NCBI GenBank assembly: GCA_023078555.1
Contig: CM041201.1
Span: 5,587,172-5,651,171 of the forward strand
DNA length: 64,000 bases
DNA from: Ulva prolifera
Taxonomy: Eukaryota > Chlorophyta > Ulvophyceae > Ulvales > Ulvaceae
Direction: 5' to 3'
How positions within the stretch are numbered: the stretch's first letter is position 1; each line of letters starts with the position of its first letter. The notes beneath the pieces were generated by a model, which was not told the DNA's origin, made no database searches, and saw only the letters and a list, made by a program, of their open reading frames with translations. This document shows, piece after piece, positions 21,325 to 63,904 of this stretch. The translations under genes and the position numbers were made by a program.

Positions 21325-23060
21325 CAGTAACCAAATGAGCCTTTGTGCCTTGATGCATTCCATCATCGTGTGTAGTACTATGGTTGCCAATGAATCCTTC
21401 AAAACAATATATCATTGCTCTCGTTGTAATGCTCAGTGTCGATGCCAGCATCATTCATGTATGGAAGGTTCACCCTCGCACAGGAGTGCCTCGCTCAGAA
21501 GAAGAGTCAGCAGCATTTGTTATACGGAAAAAGCAGGCGCATTGCAATGTTGACAACTCCAATCTGTGGGGTCCAAAAACACAACTGAATGCCTTCTCGA
21601 ATGGCTTGAGATTATGAACAGGTAGCAATGAAGAAAAACGCCCATCGTGAATGAGTTCCGACATGCAGAGTATCATGAGAGCTGTGCACCTTGTCCAGGT
21701 TCGAATTCCCTCCTCGACACACTTCGTCTATGGACTAGCAAGTCACCTCATGCAATGTGTTGCACCGGGGACAAGCTTGTTCCAGCCGACCAGGATCCCC
21801 GTGAAGAAGGCGTGGTGCTGCGTTCCCATTGGCCGGTACCCCCGACCTTCGGGATACACCCAAGTTGCTCACCGGTGAAAGCCCGGTGAGCCACATGTTG
21901 TTGTGTGCCAGCTTGTGCACAATCATGCAACATGATTGACATGCAAGGTATCGCATAGCGCGCTGAATGTCTAGGACGCAAAGTCCCTGGTCTCTGAGCG
22001 GAGTACCTTGGAATGAACAACAGTGGAAGTTGGGCTTACGGCCAGGCATGAGGACCTGTGCGGCAAGAGTACAACAGGAATTTGGATGCGTGGACGCACG
22101 AGAGTGGAAGGTATGCTCAAATAGAAACGCCCCATCCGAAGCTGTGTCAACTGTGTCGGACCTAGCAAGCGCGTAGCAAAAATGCTGCTTGTGATGCGCC
22201 CAAGACTACTCCTGCTATGGCGGGCCTCGCCAAGATGTTGCGCACCCTATGCAATCATCTGATGGAATCCCCAAAAAGTGAGGGATCTCAACTACCTTGT
22301 GGTGACACGCTGAAATGCGTGAGTGTTTGACGGTGTTATGTGTGCAGTGCATGGTGCATGATGATGTCTGTGAGAGGCCGTGCATGCTGCAACCCCATGA
22401 GCGGACGTGGCGTACGCGTGGTGCGAACCAGAGATCGACACGCTGGACGCTGGATCTTCTCTTGAGATTGTGCGTGAATAATATGCAGCATCTTGACCTA
22501 GCCGCCACAGTGTGTAACTAAAGGGGCGCCGGGACTGATCTATCCGTGCATGTGTACGTTTTGAAGTGTACTTCCAAGTCTGACAGCGAGCAGGATCCGA
22601 CAGGTGCGGCTGTCCGATCTAGCGGATGTTTATAAGTTGTCGTACATGCGGCCTCATAAGCTGAGATCGCGTGTGTTCGCGTGCACGGCCTTTTGCAAGT
22701 TGGCTTTGTGAAATCAAGTCCATTGTGTGACTCTATGTATGTATGCGGCGCATGCGCCACATGTGAGTATCTTGTGATAGTCTAACGTGGTGATCGTCGT
22801 ATAACACAAGGATCTTACCATATATAAGTGTACCTGTGAAGATACATGTATATGAGTGTGCATCATGACTCAATGAAATATTCACATGCATTAATTGTGA
22901 CCAACAATTGTGACCACCGGCCTGCGCCAGCGTGAGATACTATCTCACAACACTGAATGTAATGCATGCGGCACATGCATAGACATAATGCCGTTGTGTG
23001 TACGAGATGACCAAAATTGTCTCCATGCTTGGTCGGTTCCACAACTAATGCGCAACGAGC
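21325..23060. other. Non-genic transition from gene island to repeats
   Basis: No protein-like frame is found. A stretch at about 22120-22210 (GCCCCATCCGA through TGTGTCGGACCTAGCAAGCGC to GCGCCCAAGACTAC) recurs at 58045-58130, so part of this interval is a dispersed repeat. A short hairpin (CTCACCGG/CCGGTGAG) lies at about 21870-21890. TCTCACAACA near 22946 matches other LTR-like ends. Confidence 0.45.
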
Positions 23061-24762: not shown

Positions 24763-25556
24763 TGTTGTAATGGCCAAATCTGTCTGCTCAGAAGCACATA
24801 TATTCCAGATATGCAGGCACCAATTGTGGATACATGTGTATGTATCTCAGGCTAGTGCCTTGCAAAACTTGAGCCAGGCGAAAGTATACCAAAGAATACC
24901 TCAGAATGCCAGCATGTACCACGTCACAGCTGTGCACATGAGCTGCATGCATACAGCTACATGTGCATAATTCCACATGCCCAAAAGTGCCACTAGCATT
25001 CCTCAACATGTATAATCTCACATACCAATCCCATGTATCATGCCACCTTTTGCCACAGCCTTTTGGCAGTGCGAAGTGCCAGCTCAGTGCATGACACGTC
25101 ATGCATGCGGCGCATGCATACTCCTGGTCTGCGCTTGCGCACGCCAAGGGTGCAGCGTCAAAGACCATGCCAGCCAACCTACGTCTGCGTATCCATGCAG
25201 CACGATGTTGCTGCATTGGATTGACGGAGGATGATACATGCCAAATCCCAATGCCCGCAGCAGATCGCCAGATCTCGCGGGATGCTACACCCTGATCCGT
25301 ACAGAGATCAACGAGCAGCGCGATTCCACAGTTCCACAGAGCTATCAGTAGCGAGGACAGCACAAAGCAGGGATGGGCGTGGGCACGTATATTCCAAGTG
25401 TTTTGCTGTGATCGACACAATTACCTTTGGTCGATTGGGGCGCTCATGTTCCAGTCATTCCACTGTGTGCTACATTGTTACCCGAGTCCTTCTCTCCTGT
25501 CGTTTCTGTACGCTCGCTAGGGTGCCCAGCTCCCTGCGCTACCCGACAATTCAACA
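24763..25556 (+). repeat. Chromovirus 5' LTR
   Basis: It starts TGTTGTAATGG and ends CAATTCAACA. It matches 33800-34593 except for five single-base differences (three transitions, two transversions). The 3' portion from ATTACCTTTGGTCGATTG recurs in a diverged fragment at 42748-42890. Confidence 0.95.
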
Positions 25557-25568
25557 GGTATCGGTGAG
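25557..25568 (+). promoter_or_regulatory. Primer-binding site of the chromovirus
   Basis: GGTATCGGTGAG directly follows the 5' LTR and precedes the gag ATG by 12 nt. The same 12 nt follow the 5' LTR of the TRIM at 47076-47924 (minus strand). The implied tRNA acceptor strand CACCGAT plus A and CCA would pair with AUCGGUG, giving the A1-U72 pair typical of initiator tRNA-Met; this primer identity is inference. Confidence 0.7.
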
Positions 25569-25580
25569 AGGTTCTCTGCC

Positions 25581-27947
25581 ATGGCCGATCCTAGCGAGTA
25601 TAGTCAGTTTTATGCGGCTGTCGTTCAGCCTCCAGATGACGATGGCGTACCTCCCGACCTCATCCAACTGTTAGGCTTCAACGCTTTGCAAGCAGCAGAG
25701 CGCGAGGCAATCCGCCTGGCCATATCCCTCCTGCTGACACTTACGAAGGCTTTCTTCGAAGCGACTCGACACTCGTCTGTCGAGGTGCTGAAGTCGTACG
25801 GCCAGGCTTCCCGCACCCTGCTCCAGATCCTCGTCCAAAGCACCACCGACCAGACGCCCCCTCCGTTCGAAGCTCTTCGACGAAGGTCCCACCTGAATGG
25901 CGACCAAGTGCGCGAGCAGCTGCGAGCAGCCACTGTGACAACCTGCGCCTCCAACTGGGGTCCACCTGTGGGCTGCGTGCGCGATCTTCTCTCCGTCAGC
26001 GCGATGGCCTTCTACACCTGGACTGGGGGCGCCCTCGCTGCCACCATTCTGGACTTCGTATATTCCTTCTCTACAGATGCTGCCTGGGCAACCGTATGGC
26101 TACAGTGTCCTGTGGACCACTCCCACCTGGACTTCCCTGCCCTCGCCTTGCGCGTCACGTCGCATCGCGCAAGAAGCACCAGCTCCAGCCCCGCGGCCAT
26201 GGTGTCGCAGCTCGCCACCCTCGCCGTCAGCGCCATTGAGCCGATCGTACGGTCCATGTACACAGCAGCGTCTATCCTACCTGGGACTACAGCGAACTAC
26301 TTCGAGGAGCAGCTGTTCCGCGCGACATCCGCGCAGGTGGTAGCAGCGCCCGCGCTGCAGTACGCCGGCATCGTGCGATCGAACCTGGTACTGTCATCCC
26401 TGCCTCACGTGTCGAGCCTGCCATCGTACACCCCGAACTTCACAGACGACTCGAGTGCAACCTGGTTTAGGTCTGCTGATTATTTCTTCGCATCCATACA
26501 TTTTCCTTCGTCTGATGCGGTTCGCGGCGATGCATCCGCTGAGCGAAAGTGGCATCACTACGTGTGCGAAGTTTTGAACAACCGCGTCTTATGCATGAAA
26601 CTATCTGAGGCCTAGGTGATCAAACATTTGTCCAAGGGTTTCACTCGTGATGCCATGCACTACCAGGTTGCCACAGAAAAAGCCATGTCTCCTGAGTGCA
26701 CCGTTCGTGAATGGCTGGATGCCATACGTGACTTTTTCTTTACCAACGGGCAATTCAGAATGCATATCGAGGGAGCCTGGAGCAAATACCGTGCTGGAAA
26801 ATGCTCCAGCTTCAATGACTTGGTGCATCATGTCCGCATATATTACCAATTGATCTTTCTCGATTATGTGGACTTGCCAGGCAAAATGTCCCTGCAAGAT
26901 TTTGCATGGAACTTGTTTGACAAATTGCAGCACCTCATGTCCCCTGAGTGCACCTCAGAATTGTCAGCCACAGTCAAAATGTTCATGCCACTACCATACC
27001 TGCTACAAAAATTGACCACACATCTGGAGAACAGCCACACATGGCCGACCGAGCGCGCAAATTCACATGCCATAGCATTTGTCACATGGTGTGTGGACAA
27101 GCTGAACAAAGCCAAGGAGACAGCCAACACAGCCAAGCGCTTTGCCACATTCTCTGCCAACCATTACCAGGGTGTAGATTTTGCATCCACCAGCACCCAT
27201 ACCACCCCCACCCGTGAGATGCCAGCCCATGGCCACACATCAGCACCAAAACGAGGCCAGCGGCAGATTGCCATGGCATATACCAATACCCAAAGACCAG
27301 GCCAGAGTCGCAGCCAATTTTCCAACAACCGTTCAACATATGTGCAGCCATCTACGCCATGTTCCAGCGTCACCCGGGAGCGCTTACCAGGCCTCCGGGA
27401 CGCCCGTAAGCTTCCATTCCAACAGAAGCAGGCTTGGCTCGATAATGCCATGGACAGCCCCACCGTGCCACAGTGGATCAAAGATGTGTATGCGTTTGAA
27501 GTTGCCAACCACAACGCGCCATTCACCATCCACGGTCTTGCGGCAGCCTGCCGTAAAGAGCTCCCTTACTACCTTCCATTCACACCCGTGGCCGTCGGGA
27601 TATTCCTCTTGGAAGCAACTTTCCACCACCGCAAGCGAGTTTGCGGCATCTGCCCCTCCTCCATGCCTGACAGCGACAGGTACCACCGCATCGCGGACTG
27701 CCCTACCGCGCGTTCCATTGCGCCGGAGGCACTCGCAACCTGGGCGCAACACCCTGCCAACAAGAACAAGTGCCTGATGGCAGTGGAGCCCGCCGACGAG
27801 CTACCGCCGCCACCACCCCCGCCGCCGCAACCGCAGAGCGCGGCAAACACTCCAAATTCCGCGGGCCCCCGCAATCGCAAACGGTATGATGATACCCCTC
27901 AGACTCCGAACAAACGAGCACGTGCCCCTGGCAACCATATCCGTTGA
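25581..27947 (+). CDS. gag: Chromovirus Gag, interrupted by an in-frame TAG
   Basis: A 344-codon frame from the ATG at 25581 ends at TAG 26613-26615; the same frame continues open for 443 codons to TGA 27945-27947. The second segment has typical Gag helices (VREWLDAIRDFFF, WSKYRAGKCSSFNDLVHHV) and then a CCHC-like cluster CGICPSSMPDSDRYHRIADC with unusual spacing (C-X2-C-X10-H-X4-C), followed by a Pro-rich tail. The capsid region straddles the TAG, so the stop lies inside the protein rather than between domains. It may be a nonsense mutation (one step from TGG or CAG) or a readthrough site. I describe the break only. Confidence 0.8.
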
Positions 27948-30900
27948 GAAACTGGCAAGCCGCCTCTTGGCTGCCCATCTTGGGCGGTGGAGCCTTTTGT
28001 ACTAGCGGCTGACCACGCCTCAGGCCACGGCATTGTTTTTCCTTCCTCACTCAGCACAGCTGACAAGTCATTATTCGATATTTCCACGCTATCCTGCCCT
28101 ATTGTTGTTACCTTGCCATACACTGATGAGGCACACGTAGCATTGAGACATTTACATGCCATCAACCTGAATGGGCACCATGTCACAGTAGCCATCCCTG
28201 GCCGCTTGTTTGATAGTGATGCGTTCGTGCCGTACACTAGCAGACACAGCTACATCACAGTAGACAAAGCCAATGCATTGTTGTCCTATACGGACGGCCG
28301 CCCAGTGCCAGGTCACCAGACGTTCCATGTTTTGCGATTGATGTCCAACCAGCAGAGCCTAAATACATCTGCTATGTCTTGTGCTAGTCAGAAAATTGAC
28401 GCTGTCGATCTGATCTGCACAGTCCCCATCCACATCAAAGGCAGCCGCTTGAAGGCGCTTGTAGACACAGCCTCCAATCACAGCATGATTACAGTAGAAT
28501 TCCTACAGGCCAATGCCATACCATATCACCAAAGTGCATCCACGTCGCATGGCATCTCTGGGAGTGCAGCACCCTGCCTCGGTACTGTCACATTATGCAC
28601 AAGCATAGGCCGCCAGCGTCACGATGTCACGTACACTGTGGTAGCAAGTTTGCCGGCTGCAGAGTGGCATGCACCCAATCACGCGCTATTGGGTCTTGAT
28701 GTGATTGCCGTCACGCACATGAAACTCGAGTTTGATGATCCGGACATTCGCATCATCGTGCCTGGCCGTAAGGCTGGCCCCCGAAAGCATTCTCGTGATT
28801 GGCAGCATGTCGTGCACATACCCAAACGCACACCTGCTTCACAGGGAACATCAGATGAGTATGCATGCACCAGCCGTAAGCTGAAATCTATGGTCAATCG
28901 TGCTAAATGTGGTAAGTCGCCTCTGTACGTGGTGCATGTCAAACCAGCACATGCACGCGTCGAGCCTTCCAGCGATATGCATGTATGTGCGGCGTCGAAA
29001 AAGAAAGGTTTTCTGTCCCAGCAGCAAGTACCAGCACCAGTCCAGCAAGATGTAGCCACCATCCCACAGTGTGTTCAAGAGATAGTACACAAACATTCTA
29101 GGTCCGGAGGCACGCTCGGGCCTGCACCCCCAAATACCACAGCCTTAGGCTTTGAGATGAATATTGAGAATCTGCCTGGCACCAGACCACGTGCTGCCCG
29201 CCAGTACAGATTGACTCCACTGGAACACTCTGAACTGGAAAAGCAGGTACAACACTTGCTTGACATGGGCTGGATTCAGCCGTCCATCTCCCCTTGGGCA
29301 AGCAGCGTCCTTTTTGCTCCCAAACCCGGAGGTAAACTGAGACTGTGTGTCGACTACCGCTACCTGAATGAGAACACAGTAAAGAATACATACCCATTAC
29401 CACGCATAGATGCCTTGCTTGATAAATTGCAAGGCCAGAGATACTTTTCTTCATTGGATCTTGCTTCTGGATATCACCAGATCAGACTAGCCCCGACATC
29501 CCAGCCAAAAACTGCATTCCGCACCCCTGATGGCCTGTACGAATGGACGGTGATGCCATTCGGTCTCACCAATGCACCGAGTGTTTTCCAACAAGCAATG
29601 CACGTGGTTTTGCGTGGACTGATTGGCAAGATTTGCCTTGCATACCTCGATGACATTATCATCATTTCCAGAACTGCTGAGGATCATGCCATCAATCTTG
29701 ATCATGTGTTGACTAGGCTGCATGAACACAACTTTTTCTGCAATGCTGTCAAATGCCAATTTGCCATGCAAGAAGTCAAATACTTGGGCCATATTGTTAC
29801 AGCAGATACCGTGAAGCCAGACCCACACAAGGTTTCAGTGTTGCAACAATGGCCTGAGGCTGATTTAAAATCGTCAACCAATACCATCCGATCATTCTTG
29901 GGTCTTGCTGGCTATTTTCGCAGATTTATTCCGAAATTTCCCACCCTTGCTGCCCCACTCCTCGAGCGCATGAAAGCCAAAGGCAAGAGCGCATGGACTG
30001 AACAATGCACTCGAGCATTCAATGACATCAAACATGCTCTGATCAATGCCACAGGCCTGCGCCATCCCAATCTCAACCAGCCCTTCCATGTATACACAGA
30101 TGCCAGTGATTATGCCTATGGAGCTGTCTTGATGCAAGACCATGAAGCAGCTCTGCATCCCATTGCATGGGTAGGCCGAAAAATGAATTCCTCTGAGGTC
30201 CACCATGCCACTTTTGAAAAAGAGCTGGGCGCCATTGTTTTTGCTGCACGCCAATGGCGTTGCTATCTGGAAAATGGCCACCCCGTGTATGTCCACTCTG
30301 ACCATAATCCACTGAGATACTTGCAGACCCAGCAACGCTTGAATAACAAGCAAGCGCGTTGGGTAGAGACGCTGTCCCGCATCAACTAGCACATCATGTA
30401 CGTGCCTGGTAACAAGAACGTGGTGGCCGATGCAGTGTCTCGTGCCACGCACCTGCCTTCCATGACAGTACAACTGCATGATGACCATCCCATTTCTTGT
30501 GCCTCTCGTGCGGGAAATGCCATTCCAGTGCAAGTTTCTTATGCATTTCCGGCCGTAAGTCTGACCACGGCTATAGCACGCAGATGCCACTCTTCCCCAT
30601 CCCCGGATCCAAGCGGATACGAGCTTCCAATCGCCAGCACTGGATCAACGGCCATATCATCTGGCCAGTCGCCGATGAATCAGGCCATCCCATACCACCA
30701 GACGTTGCCAACAATCTCTCCCCAGCCCTGCGACTACTCCCGGCTACGGGAGAAGTTCGGTTCACCCCCGCCCGGCCTGTCCCCGCCCATGCCAGACCTG
30801 CGTTCCCAGTCGCAATTTCCACCTCTGTCCCAGCCACAGGACCCACGGCGGCCCACGCAGCCGCCGCCATCAGTGATTTCCATCAGCTCGGGGTCCAGCC

Positions 30901-33056
30901 CCCGCATGGGCGAGCAGCTGGAGTCTCAGCGGTCCCCGGTGTTGATGCCAACGGGATCTCCGCCAGCGCTGCCACCGCCCCCATCCCCACTTCCCCGCCG
31001 GCCCATGCCAACGCCGACCCGCCGCCGTTCTCCGCGACCGCTCCTGGTTGCCTCCGCACCCCATCTCCAATGTCAGACATTGACTTCGCGCCTACAGCGG
31101 AGGAGGCCGAATTCCTCGGCCTCACCCCTCCACCAACAGCCCGCGCGTGAGGACGACGTAGCGACCGCGCAGCCGGATGCTTCCGCGGTGGACTGGGTCG
31201 ACCAGGAGGACCTGGTGTGTGACGGCCGCGCAGTCGACGCACAGCGTGTGGGTACGCACTCACAAGCAGAGCTGCTTCTGAAACAATCCAACAAATACTT
31301 GACTCTAGATCTGCACGCGGACGACTTCTGGCAGCGATTGCGTAGTGGCTATGCACATGATTCTGATTTTGCCGAGCCACCTGCATCATACCATTACGAC
31401 CCGAAGCACCAGATTTATCTGCACAAGAACAAGATTGTTGTCCCTGATCATGATCACTTGCACCGGCAAATTCTGTTGTGGCACCACGTACACCCCTGGC
31501 ATGCACACATGGGTGTCTCTCGCACATCATCATTGATCACAGACTCATTTTACTGGCCAGATATACACAAAGATGTCAAGAAGTTTGTGTCACAATGCCA
31601 TAGCTGTCAGACCATGAAGTCCCCGTCGGAGCGGGAGGCAGTCATGTCCCCACTACCTGTACCTTCTGCATGCTGGCGTGTCGTGAGTGTAGACATGATC
31701 ACGCAACTGCCTAACTCCACGTCTGGTCACAATTGCATTGTTGTATTTGTTGATCAATTCAGCAAGATGGTAAGATTGATCCCCACAGTGTCTACTCTGA
31801 ATGGTCCCGGATTCGCTGCATTGTTTTTCCAGCACATATACCCCCATTATGGCCTGCCACTTGGCATTTGTAGTGACCGCGGTACGCAGTGGAACAATAA
31901 AATTTTCACATCCCTTTGTGATCACCTAGGCATTGCATTGCAGCTGACATTCTCCTACCATCCTAGAGCCAATGGGCAAGTTGAGCGTTACAATCGCGTT
32001 GTGGAAGAAGCTGTTCGGCATTTCATCGGTCCTGCACATGATGATTGGGATGCATTCCTGCCACATTTCGAGTTCAGTATGAATAGCTCCAAGTCGGCAG
32101 CCACGGGCTGCACGCCGTTCTCTTTGAACCGTATCACTCCGCCGCTGTCTCCCACAGCCCTTGCGCTCAAATTGCCACAGCATCAGAAACCAGCTCCAGC
32201 TGTGATGCACCGCATGTATTACTTCCTAGCAAAGCAAGCTCTGGTAGAGGCCAAGCAGTCAATGTGGTCGGATTTCAACAGGAAATCTGCTTGGCCAACC
32301 TTTTCTGTGGGTGATTTGGTCCTGCTATCTATACGTAAGGTTGCTCTGCATCATCCATCTCTCCGAAAGAAGTTTACTCCGCGTTGGTTGGGTCCCTGTA
32401 AAATTCTGGAAGTAGTGGGCCGGGCCGCGGCCCGTATATCATTGCCGACCACGCTGCAGCGCCTAGGTCTACATGATGTCGTTCACTTCTCTGTGCTGAA
32501 ACCTTACAATGAGTCCTTCGATGCTGCATGCGCCACCAGCCCTGAAGCTGCCAAGTCATCGGCCACTGTGGACACGACCACTTATGAAGTTGAATGTGTA
32601 GTCAATTACATGCAGTCGCGGCATCGCGATGACGACATCTCCATCGCGTGCCCTCACTACCAGGTGCGCTGGGTTGGCTACGATGCATCTCATGACTCTT
32701 GGTTACCAGTTGATGAGTTGTCCGAATGCCTGGAGAAAGTTGCCGATTATCTGTTCCACAATGCCTCCAGTACTCAGAGAGCGCGCATGATTCATGAGTT
32801 TCCGCGTGAAGCGCGGCTGCATCTGTCCCATATAGCAGCCAAGGCTGAATCCACCAGGCGTCCCGTCGCTGGGGGGAAGGTGCCCGCGGGTGGCAGCAAC
32901 ATCGACGATCCCAAATGCAAACCGCGTAGACGTAGTTCTCGGTTGAGCGAATCCCATAAGGCAGCACTTTCCAGGGTCACCTATTGCAGTTATTGCGGTA
33001 GGATGCGGACTGAGTCCGCAAAGCGCATGTGCGCTAATGCTGCCCCCCCGCTGTGA
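27948..33056 (+). CDS. pol: Chromovirus Pol (PR-RT-RH-IN-chromodomain), interrupted by TAG
   Basis: Pol lies in the gag frame directly after the TGA at 27945. Aspartic protease: VDTASNHS at 28461, with DTA in place of the commoner D(S/T)G. Reverse transcriptase: FSSLDLASGYHQIRL, VMPFGLTNAPSVFQ and the catalytic YLDD at 29643-29654. RNase H: VYTDASDYAYGAVL at about 30090 and HSDHNPLRYL. TAG at 30387-30389 falls between LSRIN and YVPGNKNVVADAVSR, inside the connection to integrase. A Pro/Ser-rich linker of about 250 residues follows. Integrase: HHCC zinc finger (HHVHPWH..CHSCQ), catalytic Asp in VSVDMITQ, SDRGTQWNN and the Glu in GQVERYN. Chromodomain: YEVECVVNYMQ..YQVRWVGYDASHDSWLP. The TGA at 33054 ends it. 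Confidence 0.92.
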
Positions 33057-33270
33057 TGCTGAAGGGGACGCCTGGATGTAAGCAGACTGCCTCTGTGAGG
33101 CCGGGGATTTCCAGGCAATAGGTGATGTGAGGAGGGGGCTCCCGGGAGCAAGGCCAACCCCTGCCTAAATCTGATCCGCCAGGTTGCATGTCGCGGGGCA
33201 CCAACCTGTTTTTCCATCATGTGACTTCCATAAAACCCGACAGACCCAATTCCATCATCTGAACCCACCT

Positions 33271-33585
33271 ATGTGTGCAGTTAGAAACTTGCCAGTCCCT
33301 GAGATCCCACAAGATCCGACATCCCATTCCCTCGTCCAGCGTCGACGCTTTCTCCAGAACGTCCGCCAGTTGATGCTAGATGCCACTACAATGCCAGCGC
33401 TTGGAGACTACCACTCTCAGTACCTCACTGACCTCTGCCATGTCAGAAGAGTTACTCGCAGGCTGCATGATGCAGTCCTAGACCTAGATGAGGCCATGAG
33501 TGAAATGATAAACCGCTATTCAGGTCGACAATTGTTGCCAGAGTATTTCCACGATCTCTGCGATGAGTTCCCCAGCCAGCTCTAG
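33271..33585 (+). CDS. Small third ORF between pol and the 3' LTR
   Basis: An ATG-started frame of 104 codons (MCAVRNLPVPEIPQ... to stop at 33583-33585) lies 215 bp after pol. It reads like a soluble helical protein (FLQNVRQLMLDATT, LHDAVLDLDEAMSEMIN). I do not recognise it. Its position recalls the extra 3' ORFs of some plant Gypsy elements, but an internal-region relic is equally possible. Confidence 0.4.
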   Translation: MCAVRNLPVPEIPQDPTSHSLVQRRRFLQNVRQLMLDATTMPALGDYHSQYLTDLCHVRRVTRRLHDAVLDLDEAMSEMINRYSGRQLLPEYFHDLCDEFPSQL

Positions 33586-33790
33586 AACTAGCCTTAATTC
33601 CAACAAGGTCACTCATCCGTATTCCAGATGAGTAGACCCTTCTCTGTAAATACCACATTGCCCCGGTCTTATGATGTACCCTACCATTCAAGTCAATGTG
33701 CTGTCTCCATTTATCTGCTTACCTGAGCTTCCAGACTTGCCCTGAGCTTGTAGAGCATACTCTTGTTTGCCCTGCTCCGCTCCCGTGTGT

Positions 33791-33799
33791 GGGGGGAGG
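33791..33799 (+). promoter_or_regulatory. Polypurine tract
   Basis: GGGGGGAGG lies immediately before the 3' LTR start TGTTGTAATGG at 33800, the expected position for the plus-strand primer. Confidence 0.8.
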
Positions 33800-34593
33800 T
33801 GTTGTAATGGCCAAATCTGTCTGCTCAGAAGCACATATATTCCAGATATGCAGGCACCAATTGTGGATACATGTGTATGTATCTCAGGCTAGTGCCTTGC
33901 AGAACTTGAGCCAGGCGAAAGTATACCAAAGAATACCTCAGAATGCCAGCATGTACCACGTCACAGCTGTGCACATGAGCTGCATGCATACAGCTACATG
34001 TGCATAATTCCACATGCCCAAAAGTGCCACTAGCATTCCTCAACATGTATAATCTCACATACCAATCCCATGTATCATGCCACCTTTTGCCACAGCCTTT
34101 TGGCAGTGCGAAGTGCCAGCTCAGTGCATGACACGTCATGCATGCGGCGCATGCATACTCCTGGTCTGCGCTTGCGCACGCCAAGGGTGCAGCGTCAAAG
34201 ACCATACCAGCCAACCTACGTCTGCGTATCCATGCAGCACGATGTTGCTGCATTGGATTGACGGAGGATGATACATGCCAAATCCCAATGCCCGCAGCAG
34301 ATCGCCAGATCTCGCGGGATGCTACACCCTGATCCGTACAGAGATCAACGAGCAGCGCGATTCCACAGTTCCACAGAGCTATCAGTAGCGAGGACAGCAC
34401 AAAGCAGGGATGGGCCTGGGCACATATATTCCAAGTGTTTTGCTGTGATCGACACAATTACCTTTGGTCGATTGGGGCGCTCCTGTTCCAGTCATTCCAC
34501 TGTGTGCTACATTGTTACCCGAGTCCTTCTCTCCTGTCGTTTCTGTACGCTCGCTAGGGTGCCCAGCTCCCTGCGCTACCCGACAATTCAACA
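33800..34593 (+). repeat. Chromovirus 3' LTR
   Basis: It is 794 bp, the same length as the 5' LTR, with five differences. It is followed by the target duplication GTATC and then the right part of the split solo LTR. Confidence 0.95.
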
Positions 34594-38400: not shown

Positions 38401-38623
38401 CCACCTGGACCTCGGCACGAGACGAGATGGACACCCACCTCGGCTCTGTGCCATCCCTATTATCATTAATATATTGAACACATTATTATTTTATACTTTA
38501 ATTTGGCGCCGGAATCGGATTTCAAGCAAAATCCACCTCCAATCATCGTGCGCTCCGGCGGTACATTCCGAAGAAATATAAATTGTATTTATATTATACT
38601 AACAGGTCAAGCTTATAACAAAT

Positions 38624-38695
38624 GGGGCTTTAGCTCAGTGGTAGAGCGCCTGCTTAGCATGCAGGAGGTCGAGGTTTCAACTACCTCAAGCTCCA
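38624..38695 (+). tRNA. tRNA-Ala (anticodon AGC)
   Basis: A 72-nt intronless cloverleaf. The acceptor GGGGCTT/AAGCTCC contains G3-U70, the alanine identity pair. The D arm is GCTC-AGTGGTA-GAGC, the anticodon stem CCTGC/GCAGG with loop TTAGCAT, the T arm GAGGT-TTCAACT-ACCTC, and the discriminator A. The CCA is not encoded. It is followed directly by a GC-rich repeat of the TTTAGCAC family. Confidence 0.93.
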
Positions 38696-38699
38696 TATT

Positions 38700-41541: not shown

Positions 41542-42475
41542 GTGAGTTACAGAATCACAGAGCAGGTACCCATGCCAGCTGCATGGTCTCTCGCAAGTGT
41601 TTGGTACGCAAAACGAGTCAGCCACATAAGCTTTCAAAATATGCACACGTCATGACCGTCACAAAGAAGCCATCTAACCTGATAGGTTGCATTTGCTGAC
41701 ATGAACCTGTTGGAAGCACTCTCCCTCTTCTTGCGGACCCCTGACACCTGTCCGTATGTGATGCTGTTGCTTCACCACCGTGATTCGAGTGCCTGCTACG
41801 TTTCCCCCGGTCCGGTGTGCCCACACAGGTGATGGAGCTGCCAACTGCTTTTGTTCGGCACTGACTGCCTGCGAATGAAGCGCTGCAGCACTCACATGAT
41901 GTTGCAAACGACGTGTACTTGCACACTAGCATGCGCGATGAATGAACGGGAATTGTAAGCAGGATTCCCTTGTCACTTTTCCGTGCCCATCTGTCCATCG
42001 GTGTCGCGCGGGCCCCGTTGCCTGACTCCTCCGTGCGTTGTGCAGCAGCAAGCGTCCGTGACAGGGGAGCTCCCATACATGGAGACGGCGCGCCACGGTA
42101 CAGCGCGTCTGCCGGCACGATCGTAAAATACGTGCATCATACTCACTGCATCAGAAACAAATCGCAGCGAGCTTCGAGCATCACGCATCGAGCAGCGGAG
42201 CGTCGCAGCTTCGCTGCACCTCCGGCGACGCCTGGCTCCTACGCTCCGCCATGGACGCGGCTGTTTCAAGCCCAGGTGGGACATCACAAAGCGAATACTA
42301 AACACTAGCATCATTCTCGGTGCGACAGTTGCTCATTGTATCGAGCTTCAAGCATGTAAGCGCTGTAGATGCATTGCATTTCCGTGGCTACGCAAGTTGC
42401 AGCGCTTTGCCGCGGCCGCGACCGCCGCACGGCCAGCTATGGAACAACAAACTATGAAAAACTAGTTGGCATAGT
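41542..42475. other. No recognised gene
   Basis: Mixed-composition sequence. Minus-strand frames of 80-166 codons occur but resemble no protein. A GC-rich patch at 42160-42260 contains CGTCGCAGCTTCGCTGC. Confidence 0.3.
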
Positions 42476-42479
42476 GCTC

Positions 42480-42747
42480 TGATGACTCTGCGTTGTATGT
42501 ATACTTCGACCTGATTTCTCTACGCTATAGATGTCCGAAACTGCTTCGAAGCTATATTCTAGCGAGGAACGTACCTTGCCGCGTAAGGTATTGTGTAGAA
42601 ATGAATGAGTGTGATTCGAACCGGTGACCTCTACAGTGCTCACTACCACTGGGGCCCACCTGAAGCAACGAGTCCTTTGTTAGATGACTCATCCCTTGAT
42701 TTTGGCGGCTATATAATAACTTCGTCTCGGATTCTTAGATATCCCAC
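42480..42747 (-). mobile_element. Diverged TRIM-type solo LTR with tRNA-like segment
   Basis: On the minus strand it starts TGTTGTGGGATATC, as do the LTRs of the TRIM at 47076-47924, and keeps the same landmarks (AACAAAGGACTCGTTGCTTCAGG; GCGGCAAGGTACGTTCC). The tRNA-like part reads CCCCAGTGGTAG and then GGTTCGAATC, a perfect B-box core, about 45 nt apart. It abuts a fragment of chromovirus LTR at 42748. Confidence 0.6.
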
Positions 42748-42890
42748 AACAATTACCTTTGGTCGATTGGGGCGCTGCTGCTCCAGCCATTCCACTATGT
42801 ACTGCGTTGTTACCCCTGTGTGTCATGTTTGTCGATTTCGTATGCTCGCCAAGGTGCCAACTCCTGGCGCTACCCCATCAGTGAACAAGG
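42748..42890 (+). repeat. Diverged fragment of the chromovirus LTR 3' half
   Basis: From ATTACCTTTGGTCGATTG it follows the chromovirus LTR (compare 25419-25550) with many substitutions. It is an older relative of the element at 24763-34593. Confidence 0.7.
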
Positions 42891-45542: not shown

Positions 45543-45603
45543 ATTGTTATATACAAAAACATAAAATGATTATATTGTAATATTGTGACTACTTTGACAT
45601 CAT

Positions 45604-45675
45604 GGGGCTTTAGCTCAGTGGTAGAGCGCCTGCTTTGCATGCAGGAGGTCAGGGTTTCGATCACTCTAAGCTCCA
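45604..45675 (+). tRNA. tRNA-Ala (anticodon TGC)
   Basis: 72 nt, intronless, nearly identical to the AGC gene in the acceptor, D and anticodon stems. Loop TTTGCAT gives anticodon UGC; G3-U70 is present. The T arm AGGGT-TTCGATC-ACTCT has one G-U pair. TTTT follows at 45676-45679 as a Pol III terminator. No CCA is encoded. Confidence 0.93.
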
Positions 45676-45677
45676 TT

Positions 45678-46467
45678 TTGTCGTGTCATTTCAATAAGCA
45701 CTTAGGAGGTCAGTTTTTGCGTCGAAAACGCGGTGCGGAGGAGGTCGTGGAACGTCGACCGACGAGGCGGGTCGAAGCCCGGCCCCAGCGAGGCGAGGGA
45801 GGCTCGGGGACGGCGCCTGGATGCACGAGACAGGCAAACTGGCACGCGGAGGCCCTTTTTGGACAGGGCTGCGCGTGTTAGGGGTGCCGAAGGCAGCGTG
45901 GGGCGCGCGGCGAGGGGACAGCGGGCGGGACGTGGGTGGCGGAGGTCCCAGGCGCGCGGTGCGAGGCGAGCGGGCGAACGCGGGGCACAGAGGGTCAGAG
46001 AGACACGGATGTTTGCGCTGGCCGGTGCTGAGCGGCGTGGAAGGCGGCGTGGAGGGATGCAGGAGGTGGACGAGGTCGTGGCGAGCTGTACGCCGTGCGG
46101 TGAGCGCCGAGGCGCAGCCGGCGCCGTGAGGGCAACAGGAAGATGCAGAGGTCGTTGGAAGAGACACGATCGAGCGCATATGGCGTCGCAGAGCTGGCGG
46201 TCGTGCGTGCAGGCGTCGCGGTGCGTGTCGTGTGAAGGCACCAGTTCAGGCCTGGTCGCAGTGGCAGGAAAAGAGCCTGCGAGCAACAGGAAGATGCAGA
46301 GGTCGTTGAAAAAGACACGATCGAGCACATGTGGCGTCGCAGCGCTGGCGTTCGTGCGTGCAGGCGTCGCGGAGCGTGCCGTGTGTATGCACGAGCGCAG
46401 GCCTGGTCGCACAAGCGGCGTGGCAGGAGCCTGCGAGGTCAGCTCGAGGACGGAAAAGATAACCTTC
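45678..46467 (+). repeat. 790-bp direct repeat, copy A
   Basis: It is near-identical to 63115-63904 (differences only noted at the first 20 bp), 17.4 kb away. It is GC-rich, starts TTGTCGTGTCATTTCAATAAGC and contains GCGTCGAAAACGCGG, relating it to the TTTAGCACTT family. An internal tandem duplication of about 150 bp is visible: GCAACAGGAAGATGCAGAGG starts at about 46130 and again at about 46283. Long overlapping frames on both strands (for example 359 codons from 45733) are Arg/Ala/Pro-rich composition artefacts. Confidence 0.85.
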
Positions 46468-47070
46468 CAAGAGCTAATTACCTTTGCGCGACAGGATGTG
46501 GTGTATGCGACGTGGGCGGACGGGGACGCAGCGCAGAGGCGATCGCGGCATTGCAGCAGGTGGCGACAGGCGCAGCTACCGCAAGGTTCGGAGATGTACG
46601 CCATCGCGCGAGCAACGACCGCGGACGTGTCGGGATACATCTATCAACGCAGCACGGGCGACGGTGCTGTATTGCGTATATCCCGGGTCGCAGCGGGAAA
46701 CCAGATAACACATTCAGGTCGTCGGCCAACTCTACCGGCGCCGTTGCAGCGCACCGGTAGCAGCGTTCTTCGTAACACCGCCGCTGTCGTGTTCTCGGTG
46801 GGTAATTGGTAATAGGGGTCGTTCTGTCGTGTGGCACGGCTGCGTCAGGCGTCGTAGCGGTCGGGGCGTTCGACGCCAGCCTCGCACGTGTGCGACCAGG
46901 TCCCAGCGAGGTCACCACGGTGGCGCGCCCTTCGTGAAGCCCGATCCCCAGCATACGCACGCAGTCACAGAGGGTGACGTTCTTACACCGCTTGCAAGAG
47001 GCCGTGTCCGTGGGAGCAGCGGATCGTCACACAGTCGGTCGGGACGACCTAGGTCAACCGGGCGAGCAGA
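46468..47070. other. GC-rich sequence without recognised gene
   Basis: Continues from the repeat into unrelated GC-rich sequence with long Arg-rich frames on both strands. No domain, splice pattern or RNA is recognised. Confidence 0.3.
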
Positions 47071-47218
47071 CCGTCTGTCAAGACGCGTGTTAGTCTCATC
47101 GAGTGTGCACAGGGGTTAATGCGCGTGCCTGAGCTGGTAAGCATGCTGACTGTGCATGACGACGTGGAGGGGAGCGTACCTTGCCATCGCGTAAAGTCGC
47201 GTGGCAGAAATGAAAGTA

Positions 47219-47280
47219 AGAATTGAACCGGTGACCTTATGAGTACACACGACATGCTCTACCGCTGGGGCTCACCTGAA
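47219..47280 (-). promoter_or_regulatory. tRNA-like A-box/B-box segment in the TRIM LTR
   Basis: On the minus strand CCCCAGCGGTAGAGC (D-arm/A-box-like, 47257-47271) is followed by CTCATAA, which looks like a Met anticodon loop (CAT), and by GGTTCAATT (B-box-like, 47221-47229). Spacing is right for a Pol III internal promoter. The second LTR has the same at 47818-47835 and 47782-47790; a relative at 42608-42660 has an even better B-box. The A-box start is degenerate and the anticodon stem is not fully paired, so it is tRNA-derived, not a working tRNA gene. Confidence 0.6.
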
Positions 47281-47624
47281 GCAACGAGTCCTTTGTTAGA
47301 TGACTCCTCCCTTGATTATGTCATCTATATTCTTGGATCCCCAGATATGGATATCCCACAACACTTCCCCCCTTAACGAGGATCGAGCGTAGGGAGATCC
47401 AGATCTGATAACTGTGGGATATCTTCGATGCTCCTGATGGAATGTTGGAACCTTCTCTTCGCGTCCCGAGTCCACGGGGGCCCAACCCGCTATAACCGAA
47501 CTCATATAATTGGGACTCCCTTAAGCTCGAGAGCTATGCTGACTGGGATGCGATCGCTCGGGAGGAGCTCACACAGCGGAAGGTGTAATGAAGATGGAAG
47601 CTGTAAGGCAGATTACGAAGTCTG

Positions 47625-47636
47625 CTCACCGATACC
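47625..47636 (-). promoter_or_regulatory. TRIM primer-binding site
   Basis: On the minus strand GGTATCGGTGAG abuts the end of the 5' LTR. It equals the 12 nt after the chromovirus 5' LTR, so both elements are primed by the same tRNA. Confidence 0.8.
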
Positions 47637-47929
47637 TGTCAAGACGCGTGTTAGTCTCATCGAGTGTGCACAGGGGTTAATGCGCGTGCCTGAGCTGGTA
47701 AGCATGCTGACTGTGCATGACGACGTGGAGGGGAGCGTACCTTGCCATCGCGTAAAGTCGCGTGGCAGAAATGAAAGTAAGAATTGAACCGGTGACCTTA
47801 TGAGTACACACGACATGCTCTACCGCTGGGGCTCACCTGAAGCAACGAGTCCTTTGTTAGATGACTCCTCCCTTGATTATGTCATCTATATTCTTGGATC
47901 CCCAGATATGGATATCCCACAACACCGTC

Positions 47930-48884
47930 GCCTACACTGGCCACGACGGCTCCGCAGGCGTGCACAGGCGCAGTCTGTCGTCGTATATAGCCGCGGGAGG
48001 AAGGCATGGCGACTGCAGAGGCCGAGGAGTTGTCCAAGCGGTGCGTTCCGTGGCAAGGCGCCCAGCCTGGTCGCGGCTGGTTGCGTAAGCGCATGCATAA
48101 GGGGCGCGTCGGTACGTAAGGGTCGCTGTCGGTCAGTGGCGAGCTGGCGACGATGCAGGCGCTACACAAGGCAACGTAGGCATAGGCTGCATTCGTGTTT
48201 GGCACACCAGCATCATCCGGGCGAACGGGAAGATGTTTATCGTGCGACCTTGAGCGTGCCGCTCGTCCGCCGATGGCATGGCATGCGCGCGCGTTGGTAA
48301 ACTTGCCCCGTGTGGGCGCGGCTGTAGTGTGATCGTGTGTGTCTCGATGATGGTTCGGATGAGATCCTTCTGCGGTATTTGTCTTTTCCCGTTCACTGTC
48401 GCCGCGGTTTCAGGTCCGGTATACATACCAGTCTCGTCTCTCGACGCAGGTTATCTTGTTTAACAAAAGAGTGAACTGGAGAAGACAAACGCCGAAACCG
48501 AATCTAATTCGAATCAACAGCCTTATCTTATCTCGCAGACAGCTGCGGTGCATTGCTATGCCAAGCATGTATCTGCGCAATGCATGTACACACGTCTGCG
48601 GCATCACAACTCCACCCACACACAGATGCAAACTTGTCTCCACCATGTTCTTTGCCGATGGATGGATGGGACTCATCAGACTGGTCACAAAAGAGCCCGA
48701 CCCCTACTCAGTGAGCGTCGGCCTGTACAGCTACACCAAACAATTTGACCACTCTCCTACCCCCCGTGTCCGCTACTACATTCGTCTGTTATTGCAATGC
48801 ATTGTGCAGAGGCACCTGCCGTTTTTATGCGTGAGGCATGTACAAGTGCTAGTATGGGTCTGGTTGGGCCTGGTAAGTCAAGCA
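47930..48884. other. No recognised gene
   Basis: No convincing protein. A dispersed motif (CAAAAGAGTGAACTGGAG then ACAAACGCCGAAACCGAATC) is at 48464-48505; related copies, some inverted, are at 48376, 49149, 51073 and 59842. Confidence 0.35.
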
Positions 48885-49410
48885 GGGCAGCCATGCATGT
48901 AACGATCCAGGCGCTCGAGAATGGTCGGTGGGGCACCAACCATTCGGGCAGTCATGCATGTAACGATCCAGGCGCTCGAGAATGGTCGGTGGGGCACCAA
49001 CCATTCGGGCAGTCATGCATGTAACGATCCAGGCACTCGAGAATGGTCGGTGGGGCACCAACCATTCGGGCAGTCATGCATGTAACGATCCAGGCGCTCG
49101 AGAATGGTCGGTGGGGCACCAACCATTCGGGCAGTCATGCATGTAATGTACAAAAGAGTGAACGGGAGAAAACAAACACTGAAACCGAATCACATCCGAA
49201 TCAAGTCATGCATGTGACGATCCAGGCGCTCGAGAATGGTCGGTGGGGCACCAACCATTCGGGCAGTCATGCATGTGACGATCCAGGCGCTCCAGAATGG
49301 TCGGTGGGGCACCAACCATTCGGGCAGTCATGCATGTGACGATCCAGGCGCTCCAGAATGGTCGGTGGAGCACCAACCATTCGGGCAGTCATGCATGTGA
49401 CGATTCATGC
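48885..49410 (+). repeat. 60-bp minisatellite
   Basis: About seven units with core AACGATCCAGGCGCTCGAG and TCGGTGGGGCACCAACC. Four consecutive units from 48892 are nearly identical; a 66-bp interruption carrying the dispersed AGTGAACGGGAG motif at about 49141-49206 is followed by three more units with ATGTGACGATCC. The unit keeps an open frame (NGRWGTNHSGSHAC), but 60 is a multiple of three and no gene context supports translation. Confidence 0.92.
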
Positions 49411-49644
49411 GTGGCGTGGCGACTAAGAATGACTGGTAAGGGTCTGGTCTGGCAGCACGCGGGTTTTTTGTTACCGTATCTTGCTGCTGGGTGTGTATTC
49501 CCCAGCCCCAGTTACCTGCACTCTGCCCTCGCACCAGCTGCAGCCTCCCGCCCCTGACCGGTCCGCTCGCGTACTGAATCGGCCCCGTGCGTCGGTGTGA
49601 TCTAGCCGCGTCGGCGCATGTGCCAGAGACGGACTCTTGTGTAG

Positions 49645-63114: not shown

Positions 63115-63904
63115 TTGTCGCGTCATTTTAATAAGCACTTAGGAGGTCAGTTTTTGCGTCGAAAACGCGGTGCGGAGGAGGTCGTGGAACGTCGACCGAC
63201 GAGGCGGGTCGAAGCCCGGCCCCAGCGAGGCGAGGGAGGCTCGGGGACGGCGCCTGGATGCACGAGACAGGCAAACTGGCACGCGGAGGCCCTTTTTGGA
63301 CAGGGCTGCGCGTGTTAGGGGTGCCGAAGGCAGCGTGGGGCGCGCGGCGAGGGGACAGCGGGCGGGACGTGGGTGGCGGAGGTCCCAGGCGCGCGGTGCG
63401 AGGCGAGCGGGCGAACGCGGGGCACAGAGGGTCAGAGAGACACGGATGTTTGCGCTGGCCGGTGCTGAGCGGCGTGGAAGGCGGCGTGGAGGGATGCAGG
63501 AGGTGGACGAGGTCGTGGCGAGCTGTACGCCGTGCGGTGAGCGCCGAGGCGCAGCCGGCGCCGTGAGGGCAACAGGAAGATGCAGAGGTCGTTGGAAGAG
63601 ACACGATCGAGCGCATATGGCGTCGCAGAGCTGGCGGTCGTGCGTGCAGGCGTCGCGGTGCGTGTCGTGTGAAGGCACCAGTTCAGGCCTGGTCGCAGTG
63701 GCAGGAAAAGAGCCTGCGAGCAACAGGAAGATGCAGAGGTCGTTGAAAAAGACACGATCGAGCACATGTGGCGTCGCAGCGCTGGCGTTCGTGCGTGCAG
63801 GCGTCGCGGAGCGTGCCGTGTGTATGCACGAGCGCAGGCCTGGTCGCACAAGCGGCGTGGCAGGAGCCTGCGAGGTCAGCTCGAGGACGGAAAAGATAAC
63901 CTTC
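63115..63904 (+). repeat. 790-bp direct repeat, copy B
   Basis: Near-identical to 45678-46467, but with no tRNA gene upstream. It is followed directly by a TTTAGCACTT head at 63914. Confidence 0.85.

Follow-up and report, generated by a model that had tools for sequence, protein, structure and literature searches.

Within the window, by which we mean the whole 64,000-nucleotide stretch of Ulva prolifera DNA that was analysed, direct reading places a TRIM of 849 bp on the minus strand, running from 47924 to 47076 in element sense. Its parts, together with two other LTR-bearing features of the window that are relevant to its origin and mobility, are the following:

24763-34593, plus strand: Ty3/Gypsy chromovirus-type element with an LTR pair, PBS and domains; candidate mobiliser type
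42401-42757, minus strand: diverged relative LTR, solo or truncated, with its start at 42751; aligns to positions 1-193 of the TRIM LTR
47071-47075, no strand: left target duplication (TSD), CCGTC, by direct reading
47076-47363, minus strand: 3' LTR in element sense, 288 bp, 0 differences from the 5' LTR
47222-47278, minus strand: tRNA-Thr(UGU)-like segment of the 3' LTR (LTR positions 86-142), gap-free 57-nt alignment with 42 identities
47364-47374, minus strand (47374-47364 in element sense): PPT, AAGGGGGGAAG, at the end of the interior, adjoining the 3' LTR
47364-47636, minus strand: interior, 273 bp, genome matches at 95-100%
47625-47636, minus strand (47636-47625 in element sense): PBS, GGTATCGGTGAG, complement of the initiator tRNA-Met 3' end
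47637-47924, minus strand: 5' LTR in element sense, 288 bp, 0 differences from the 3' LTR
47782-47790, minus strand: box B, GGTTCAATT; the 10-mer scores 15.1 bits, and GGTTC is present in 66 of 70 family LTR sequences
47783-47839, minus strand: tRNA-Thr(UGU)-like segment of the 5' LTR, 57-nt alignment; candidate Pol III promoter
47831-47859, minus strand: best-conserved 29 nt of four diverged LTRs (LTR positions 66-94; 24 invariant columns), covering the CAA at -16 and the first bases of the tRNA-like part
47884-47890, minus strand: TATA-like TATAGAT, some 50 nt before the tRNA-like part begins
47925-47929, no strand: right TSD, CCGTC, by direct reading

The element is short (<1 kb) and non-coding, and LTRs, PBS, PPT and TSD are all present within or around its 849 bp, which supports the identification as a TRIM made in the initial annotation of this DNA; the paired 288-bp LTRs, the perfect CCGTC duplication, the minus-strand PBS and PPT and the 273-bp interior described there were all confirmed at the positions listed above. 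All 12 nt of the PBS are complementary to the 3' end of the genome's own initiator tRNA-Met, leaving out the final A of CCA. A pattern search of the genome gave one gene for this tRNA (L119, G000:C10:1882405-1882476), with the 3' end CTCACCGATA, and the PBS 12-mer itself occurs 134 times in the genome, versus 18 occurrences of a reversed control pattern.

We searched the genome (88.9 Mb in 44 contigs) for further copies. The whole element as query gave at least 42 genomic matches (40 scored of 163 candidates), and the interior gave 33, all 33 at 95-100% and 29 of them full length; the counts obtained with the LTR as query are lower bounds (40 scored of 183 candidates). Copies were read at 40 places, which with the window copy makes 41: 26 have an interior and 15 are single LTRs; three copies of the 41 are missing one end. 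A perfect 5-bp TSD flanks 33 of the 38 two-ended copies, the other five being without any match of 4-6 bp, and six more LTRs (L121-L126) are each flanked by 5-bp direct repeats. Among 21 complete LTR pairs, 13 are identical, five have one or two differing sites, one has nine, and two are unequal in length. The family includes solo-LTR forms and also tandem forms, as at L042 (G000:C7:4650261-4651974), where an LTR-interior-LTR-interior-LTR array of the TRIM has a single outer TSD. From these observations, the TRIM family is young, multicopy and recently active. At L129 the list of open reading frames contained an antisense frame only. We also observed that at L128 (G000:C1:12436900-12440300; C1:12438518) an interior of about 95% identity has a foreign LTR-like 5' neighbour related to window 21968-22892; a TRIM LTR lies 3' of this interior, with about 1.26 kb between them resembling an insertion flanked by two GGGGAAGTG copies, and L128 is possibly a recombinant copy.

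When the LTR was aligned with the tRNA genes predicted in the host (57, of which 48 are distinct), its best match was to tRNA-Thr(UGU), a gap-free alignment with 42 of 57 nt identical over LTR positions 86-142. The score is 54, versus 35 for the next tRNA type, 26 for the reverse strand of the LTR and 28 for the interior, while 300 dinucleotide-shuffled LTRs gave a mean of 25.2 (s.d. 2.7) and a maximum of 40. The segment is present in all 70 family LTR sequences. The tRNA-like part proposed in the initial annotation is thus borne out by homology but not by structure: cmscan against Rfam over 46800-48200, up to E = 10, found no tRNA and no 5S rRNA (a sub-threshold L19 leader lies outside the element only), and ARAGORN called no tRNA in the LTR. 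Judging from the alignment, we take the segment to derive from a host tRNA-Thr(UGU) gene, which supports the idea of a captured tRNA-gene-derived segment; it is not a tRNA gene itself, because neither Rfam nor ARAGORN sees a tRNA there. The CTCATAA stretch, which had been likened to a tRNA-Met loop, aligns with ATCATAA, which forms the 3' side of the anticodon arm in tRNA-Thr, and just 4 of 70 family LTR sequences read CTCATAA here (35 have CTCTAGA, 29 CTCATGA and 2 another sequence); given the gap-free tRNA-Thr(UGU) alignment and the lack of conservation of the stretch, we rejected a tRNA-Met origin. Two D-arm subtypes, GGTAGAGC and GGTTAGAGC, coexist in the family LTRs (e.g. L042_2 vs L040_1); they mostly pair with two versions of the Thr anticodon-arm stretch, and they resemble D-loop variants of real tRNA genes.

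We hypothesize that the element is a non-autonomous Helenus-type (TRIMp3) TRIM whose tRNA-Thr(UGU)-derived LTR segment is most likely a tRNA-type Pol III promoter, a reading in which we have reasonable, though by no means complete, confidence. A promoter role is the best available reading of the segment, and it is one that we infer from sequence. The strongest alternative is an ordinary Pol II TRIM, in which the TATA-like site would serve Pol II as its TATA box, and the tRNA-Thr segment, captured once, would be carried along as a passenger that has no promoter function. We regard this alternative as rather unlikely, and the properties of the boxes, the diverged LTRs and the sequence context bear on the choice between the two.

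The boxes themselves give a divided picture. Box B, GGTTCAATTC, is strong, at 15.1 bits compared with a mean of 13.2 for the host tRNAs (46 of 48 distinct sequences used), and its core is GGTTC in 66 of 70 family LTR sequences, GATTC in three and GGTAC in one, a constancy that counts against a passenger, although the family is young. In contrast, box A is degenerate. What had been read as box A, CCCCAGCGGTAGAGC, is its 3' half plus the D-arm, the 5' half (TRGY) being lost; in the LTRs of the family and its relatives YGG is retained (as CGG or TGG), and TRGCY is missing, the sequence there reading GAGCCC or GGGCCC. Among 45 distinct LTR sequences, the 44 others lack the C that the window copy's CCCCAGCGGTAGAGC has in AGCGG, though one further genomic copy shares it. 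No host tRNA has an A+B score lower than 17.7 (mean 23.8), whereas the best A+B pair in the LTR reaches 11.8, with its A site away from the tRNA-like position. The claim of A and B boxes spaced as in a tRNA therefore holds for a strong box B, but not for box A or for the combined score, and the weakness of both counts in favour of the Pol II alternative. Scores as high as 11.8 also turned up in 19 of 886 overlapping background windows, and every host tRNA lay above that value; for these reasons we rejected the A+B box PWM alone as a discriminator of such LTRs.

The same alternative gains from the distribution of variable sites. The initial annotation had suggested examining whether the boxes are better conserved than the remaining LTR sequence; within the family this fails, with 12 of 21 box sites and 117 of 267 other LTR sites varying among 55 distinct LTR sequences (Fisher p = 0.26). 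Stronger within-family constraint on the A and B boxes is therefore rejected, box sites varying as often as others, and as a passenger would they are not preferentially conserved; we stress that this comparison has little power because the family is young.

Older LTRs extend the comparison. The relative at 42401-42757 contains TATATAG, CAA and a box B, GGTTCGAATC, in the same order as the TRIM LTR, with a shorter A-B spacing, and it adjoins an inverted fragment of the Gypsy-type LTR. By itself it gives no clear match to a host tRNA (score 31, shuffle maximum 40), and no second near-identical copy of it was present among the best 40 of 179 candidates. Further relatives were found at L120 and on the minus strand of L144 (72% and 78%, respectively), and the tRNA-like segment, variably decayed, is also found in all three of these diverged LTRs. 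A passenger would be less expected to recur across several diverged LTR types, and box B GGTTCGAATC in the relative at 42401-42757 likewise counts against it. On the other side, box B is damaged in two old relatives, reading GGCTC in L120 and GGTTTA in L144, and among the four diverged LTRs compared the invariant columns number only 4 of 10 in box B and 6 of 17 in the A-B linker. The most conserved block in these four is LTR 66-94, with 24 of 29 columns invariant versus a mean of 15.2 over 165 windows; it spans the putative start site and the first bases of the tRNA-like part, and the fact that it lies mostly upstream of the tRNA body again suits a Pol II TRIM with a passenger.

The sequence upstream of the tRNA-like part can be compared with that of host tRNA genes. 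In the long flanks of 30 such genes TATA clusters between -60 and -31, where 38 of the 80 TATA occurrences within 150 nt are found. The LTRs carry TATA-like sites at similar distances: TATAGAT at -50 in the window LTR, TATATAG at -52 in 42401-42757 and TATCTAG at -52 in L120, so that the site of the TRIM LTR falls where host tRNA genes carry TATA. CAA is found at -35 and -16 in all three LTR types measured (the window copy, 42401-42757 and L120). We read CAA as a candidate start site because of its conservation between LTR types and of the plant literature (PMC11700998); in the last 14 nt beside host tRNA genes CAA shows no clear enrichment (19 of 58, with ACA in 29 of 58).

Downstream, a T4 run lies within 40 nt of 49 of 58 host tRNA genes. 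No T4 terminator is present in the window element, nor in 25 of 26 multi-part copies, an absence that would allow Pol III to traverse the element from end to end. We did not, however, retain it as strong evidence: in mononucleotide shuffles 1.5 T4 runs are expected in the 561 nt of LTR plus interior, with a probability of 0.21 of finding none, and A4 is missing too, so the absence is not strand-specific.

A different origin would be a tRNA-derived SINE that recently inserted into one LTR and then spread with it, which would make the family a SINE-in-TRIM composite and not an old family. The tRNA-like part could indeed be a SINE head, and Kojima 2024 (PMC10886601) proposes SINE insertion as the general origin of Helenus. 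The segment also occurs in the diverged LTRs at 42401-42757, L120 and L144, however, and is therefore not recent; insertion in a single lineage, which the initial annotation had named as the refuting case, was not seen, the segment being in all 70 family LTRs as well as in these three. Searching for the box A-box B pattern gave 43 matches, all 43 with the 45-nt spacing and near-identical letters, as expected in part of a pattern that was modelled on the family and could miss other SINEs, and the 125-nt core matched over 122-126 nt at >=95% in 40 of 40 scored candidates (of 183). Direct repeats inside the LTR are all shorter than 7 nt. With uniform pattern matches, no such long internal direct repeats and the segment in diverged LTRs, we rejected a recent SINE insertion in one LTR, and consider it very improbable. 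That the tRNA resemblance arose by chance, with only the box B-like letters real, fits the empty covariance-model and ARAGORN searches and the unexceptional A+B score, but we dismissed it as barely conceivable, the alignment score standing well clear of the shuffle maximum and of those of the next tRNA type, the reverse strand and the interior.

Returning to the Pol III reading, we propose a model that starts from direct observations (the anatomy, the copies, the TSDs, the match of the PBS to initiator tRNA-Met and the tRNA-Thr homology) and continues with steps that we infer, namely the use of Pol III, its start site, its read-through and the identity of the partner. TFIIIC would bind mainly to the strong box B, box A being weak, and TFIIIB would be placed close to the TATA-like site at about -50. 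Pol III would start near the conserved CAA block of the 5' LTR. Without a T4 terminator, Pol III would read through the interior and the 3' LTR and on into flanking DNA. An autonomous LTR element, probably a Ty3/Gypsy chromovirus, would supply the proteins that package the element RNA, and reverse transcription of this RNA would be primed by initiator tRNA-Met at the PBS. Ordinary LTR strand transfer would follow, with the PPT priming the second strand, and integration would generate the 5-bp duplication.

As to the partner, the window contains a candidate in the element at 24763-34593. Its LTRs (24763-25556 and 33800-34593) are 794 bp long and ~99% identical, with the TSD GTATC; it has a PBS at 25557, the PPT GGGGGGAGG, the LTR start TGTTGT and the junction CAACA|GGTATCGGTGAGAGG, and it encodes RVT_1, RNase H, H2C2, rve and chromodomain domains. 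We also observed that its first open reading frame (25581-26615) ends in a stop that is followed by a same-frame open stretch (26616-27947). The TRIM has in common with this element the LTR start TGTTGT and the junction ACA|GGTATCGGTGAG. Copia elements are abundant in the genome (150 scored of 676 candidates), and we sampled PBS sites at three Copia-associated loci, picked for an RVT_2 match a few kb downstream. Two of these (L138 and L140) have TGACA|TGGTATCGGTGAG, where an additional T precedes the PBS, and Copia-type LTRs there start with TGTCACAATG; at the third, L142, the PBS belongs to a different LTR, with AACA|GGTATCGG. No Copia LTR pair with a PBS was seen within the short stretches of Copia loci L132-L137. 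The PBS and the 5-bp TSD alone do not separate Gypsy from Copia, and the interior DNA revealed no autonomous relative, all 33 genomic candidates belonging to the family at 95-100%. Because the TRIM shares the Gypsy-type LTR start and junction, its partner is probably a Ty3/Gypsy chromovirus, as suggested by a very small sample of junctions.

A more specific version of the Pol III reading would make the LTR a complete host-style tRNA-gene promoter, with the TATA at about -50, a CAA start block and box B in the tRNA-Thr body; lacking terminators, the element would be transcribed by Pol III into a full-length template RNA, which Ty3/Gypsy chromoviruses would mobilise. We put this forward tentatively, as a possibility about which we have more doubt than confidence. 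If it is true, the family would be the first algal Helenus and would pair Pol III with Ty3/Gypsy at 5-bp duplications, a pairing of which we found no example in the literature searched, as far as the accessible parts of those papers extend.

According to the initial annotation, no established LTR element is known to have a tRNA-type promoter in its LTR, a view that is now outdated. Kojima 2024 (PMC10886601) describes Helenus elements as TRIMs that carry tRNA-derived sequence in their LTRs and places them, together with Cassandra and Ajax, in TRIMp3; the hosts reported there are fungi, animals of six phyla and, of the plants, Selaginella alone, and the TSDs are 5 bp in fungal and plant families and 4 bp in animal ones. 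Compared with that description, the Ulva family is like Helenus in its tRNA-derived LTR segment, PBS, PPT and 5-bp TSD (as in the fungal and plant families), in the GGTTC of box B, in its solo LTRs and tandem array, and in having a PBS for a cellular tRNA (initiator Met) other than that of the LTR's own tRNA-like part (Thr). It differs in four respects from what is described there: its host is a green alga; its PBS pairs with the 3' end of initiator tRNA-Met, whereas the majority of fungal Helenus pair with the anticodon loop; its likely partner is Ty3/Gypsy despite the 5-bp TSD, whereas fungal Helenus with 5-bp TSDs are tied to Copia; and its box A is without the TRGCY that most Helenus keep. 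With Cassandra, in the same source, it shares an LTR region derived from a Pol III gene, here a candidate promoter, a non-coding nature and a similar length (565-860 bp for Cassandra). The promoter of Cassandra, however, is a 5S rRNA sequence, with transcription ending in the 5S part of the 3' LTR, whereas the source here is a tRNA gene, and there is no T4 terminator and no 5S rRNA sequence in the LTR.

Gao et al. 2016 (PMC4717578) reported TRIMs in Chlamydomonas, Volvox and Chondrus, and the Ulva family resembles these ordinary plant and algal TRIMs as a set of short non-coding LTR elements. The accessible main text of that paper contains neither 'tRNA' nor 'RNA polymerase III' and thus describes no tRNA-type LTR in those terms, and among the papers listed in our literature searches no title or beginning of an abstract named an algal tRNA-type TRIM. 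The Ulva elements are thus a new family of the known Helenus kind, likened to Helenus by its description, and green algae are probably a new host group for tRNA-type TRIMs. The family would extend tRNA-promoter TRIMs to a green alga, with young, near-identical copies, so that whether Pol III makes such templates becomes directly testable. It also indicates that tRNA-type LTRs can be recognised through homology to a named host tRNA gene, even where tRNA finders make no call.

Several minor features were seen in passing. Telomere repeats, looked for by eye in the 80 bases at each edge of 13 contig-end sequences, were not found. The genome gave 38 matches to chlorophyll-binding antenna proteins; for one of these the top PDB hit by total score is a chain called LHCI-2 (413.6 bits in two stretches), ahead of chlorophyll a-b binding proteins with at most 317.8 bits in a single stretch. 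Together with the plant-like AUC...GAUA ends of the initiator tRNA, this points to a host of the green lineage, probably an alga. The window contains a 790-bp direct duplication (45678-46467 and 63115-63904) of 99.7% identity and, at 48885-49411, a tandem repeat array with a self-match offset of about 61 bp. It also contains two tRNA-Ala genes, at 38623-38696 (AGC) and 45603-45676 (TGC), which are 88% alike over 84 bp including some flank.
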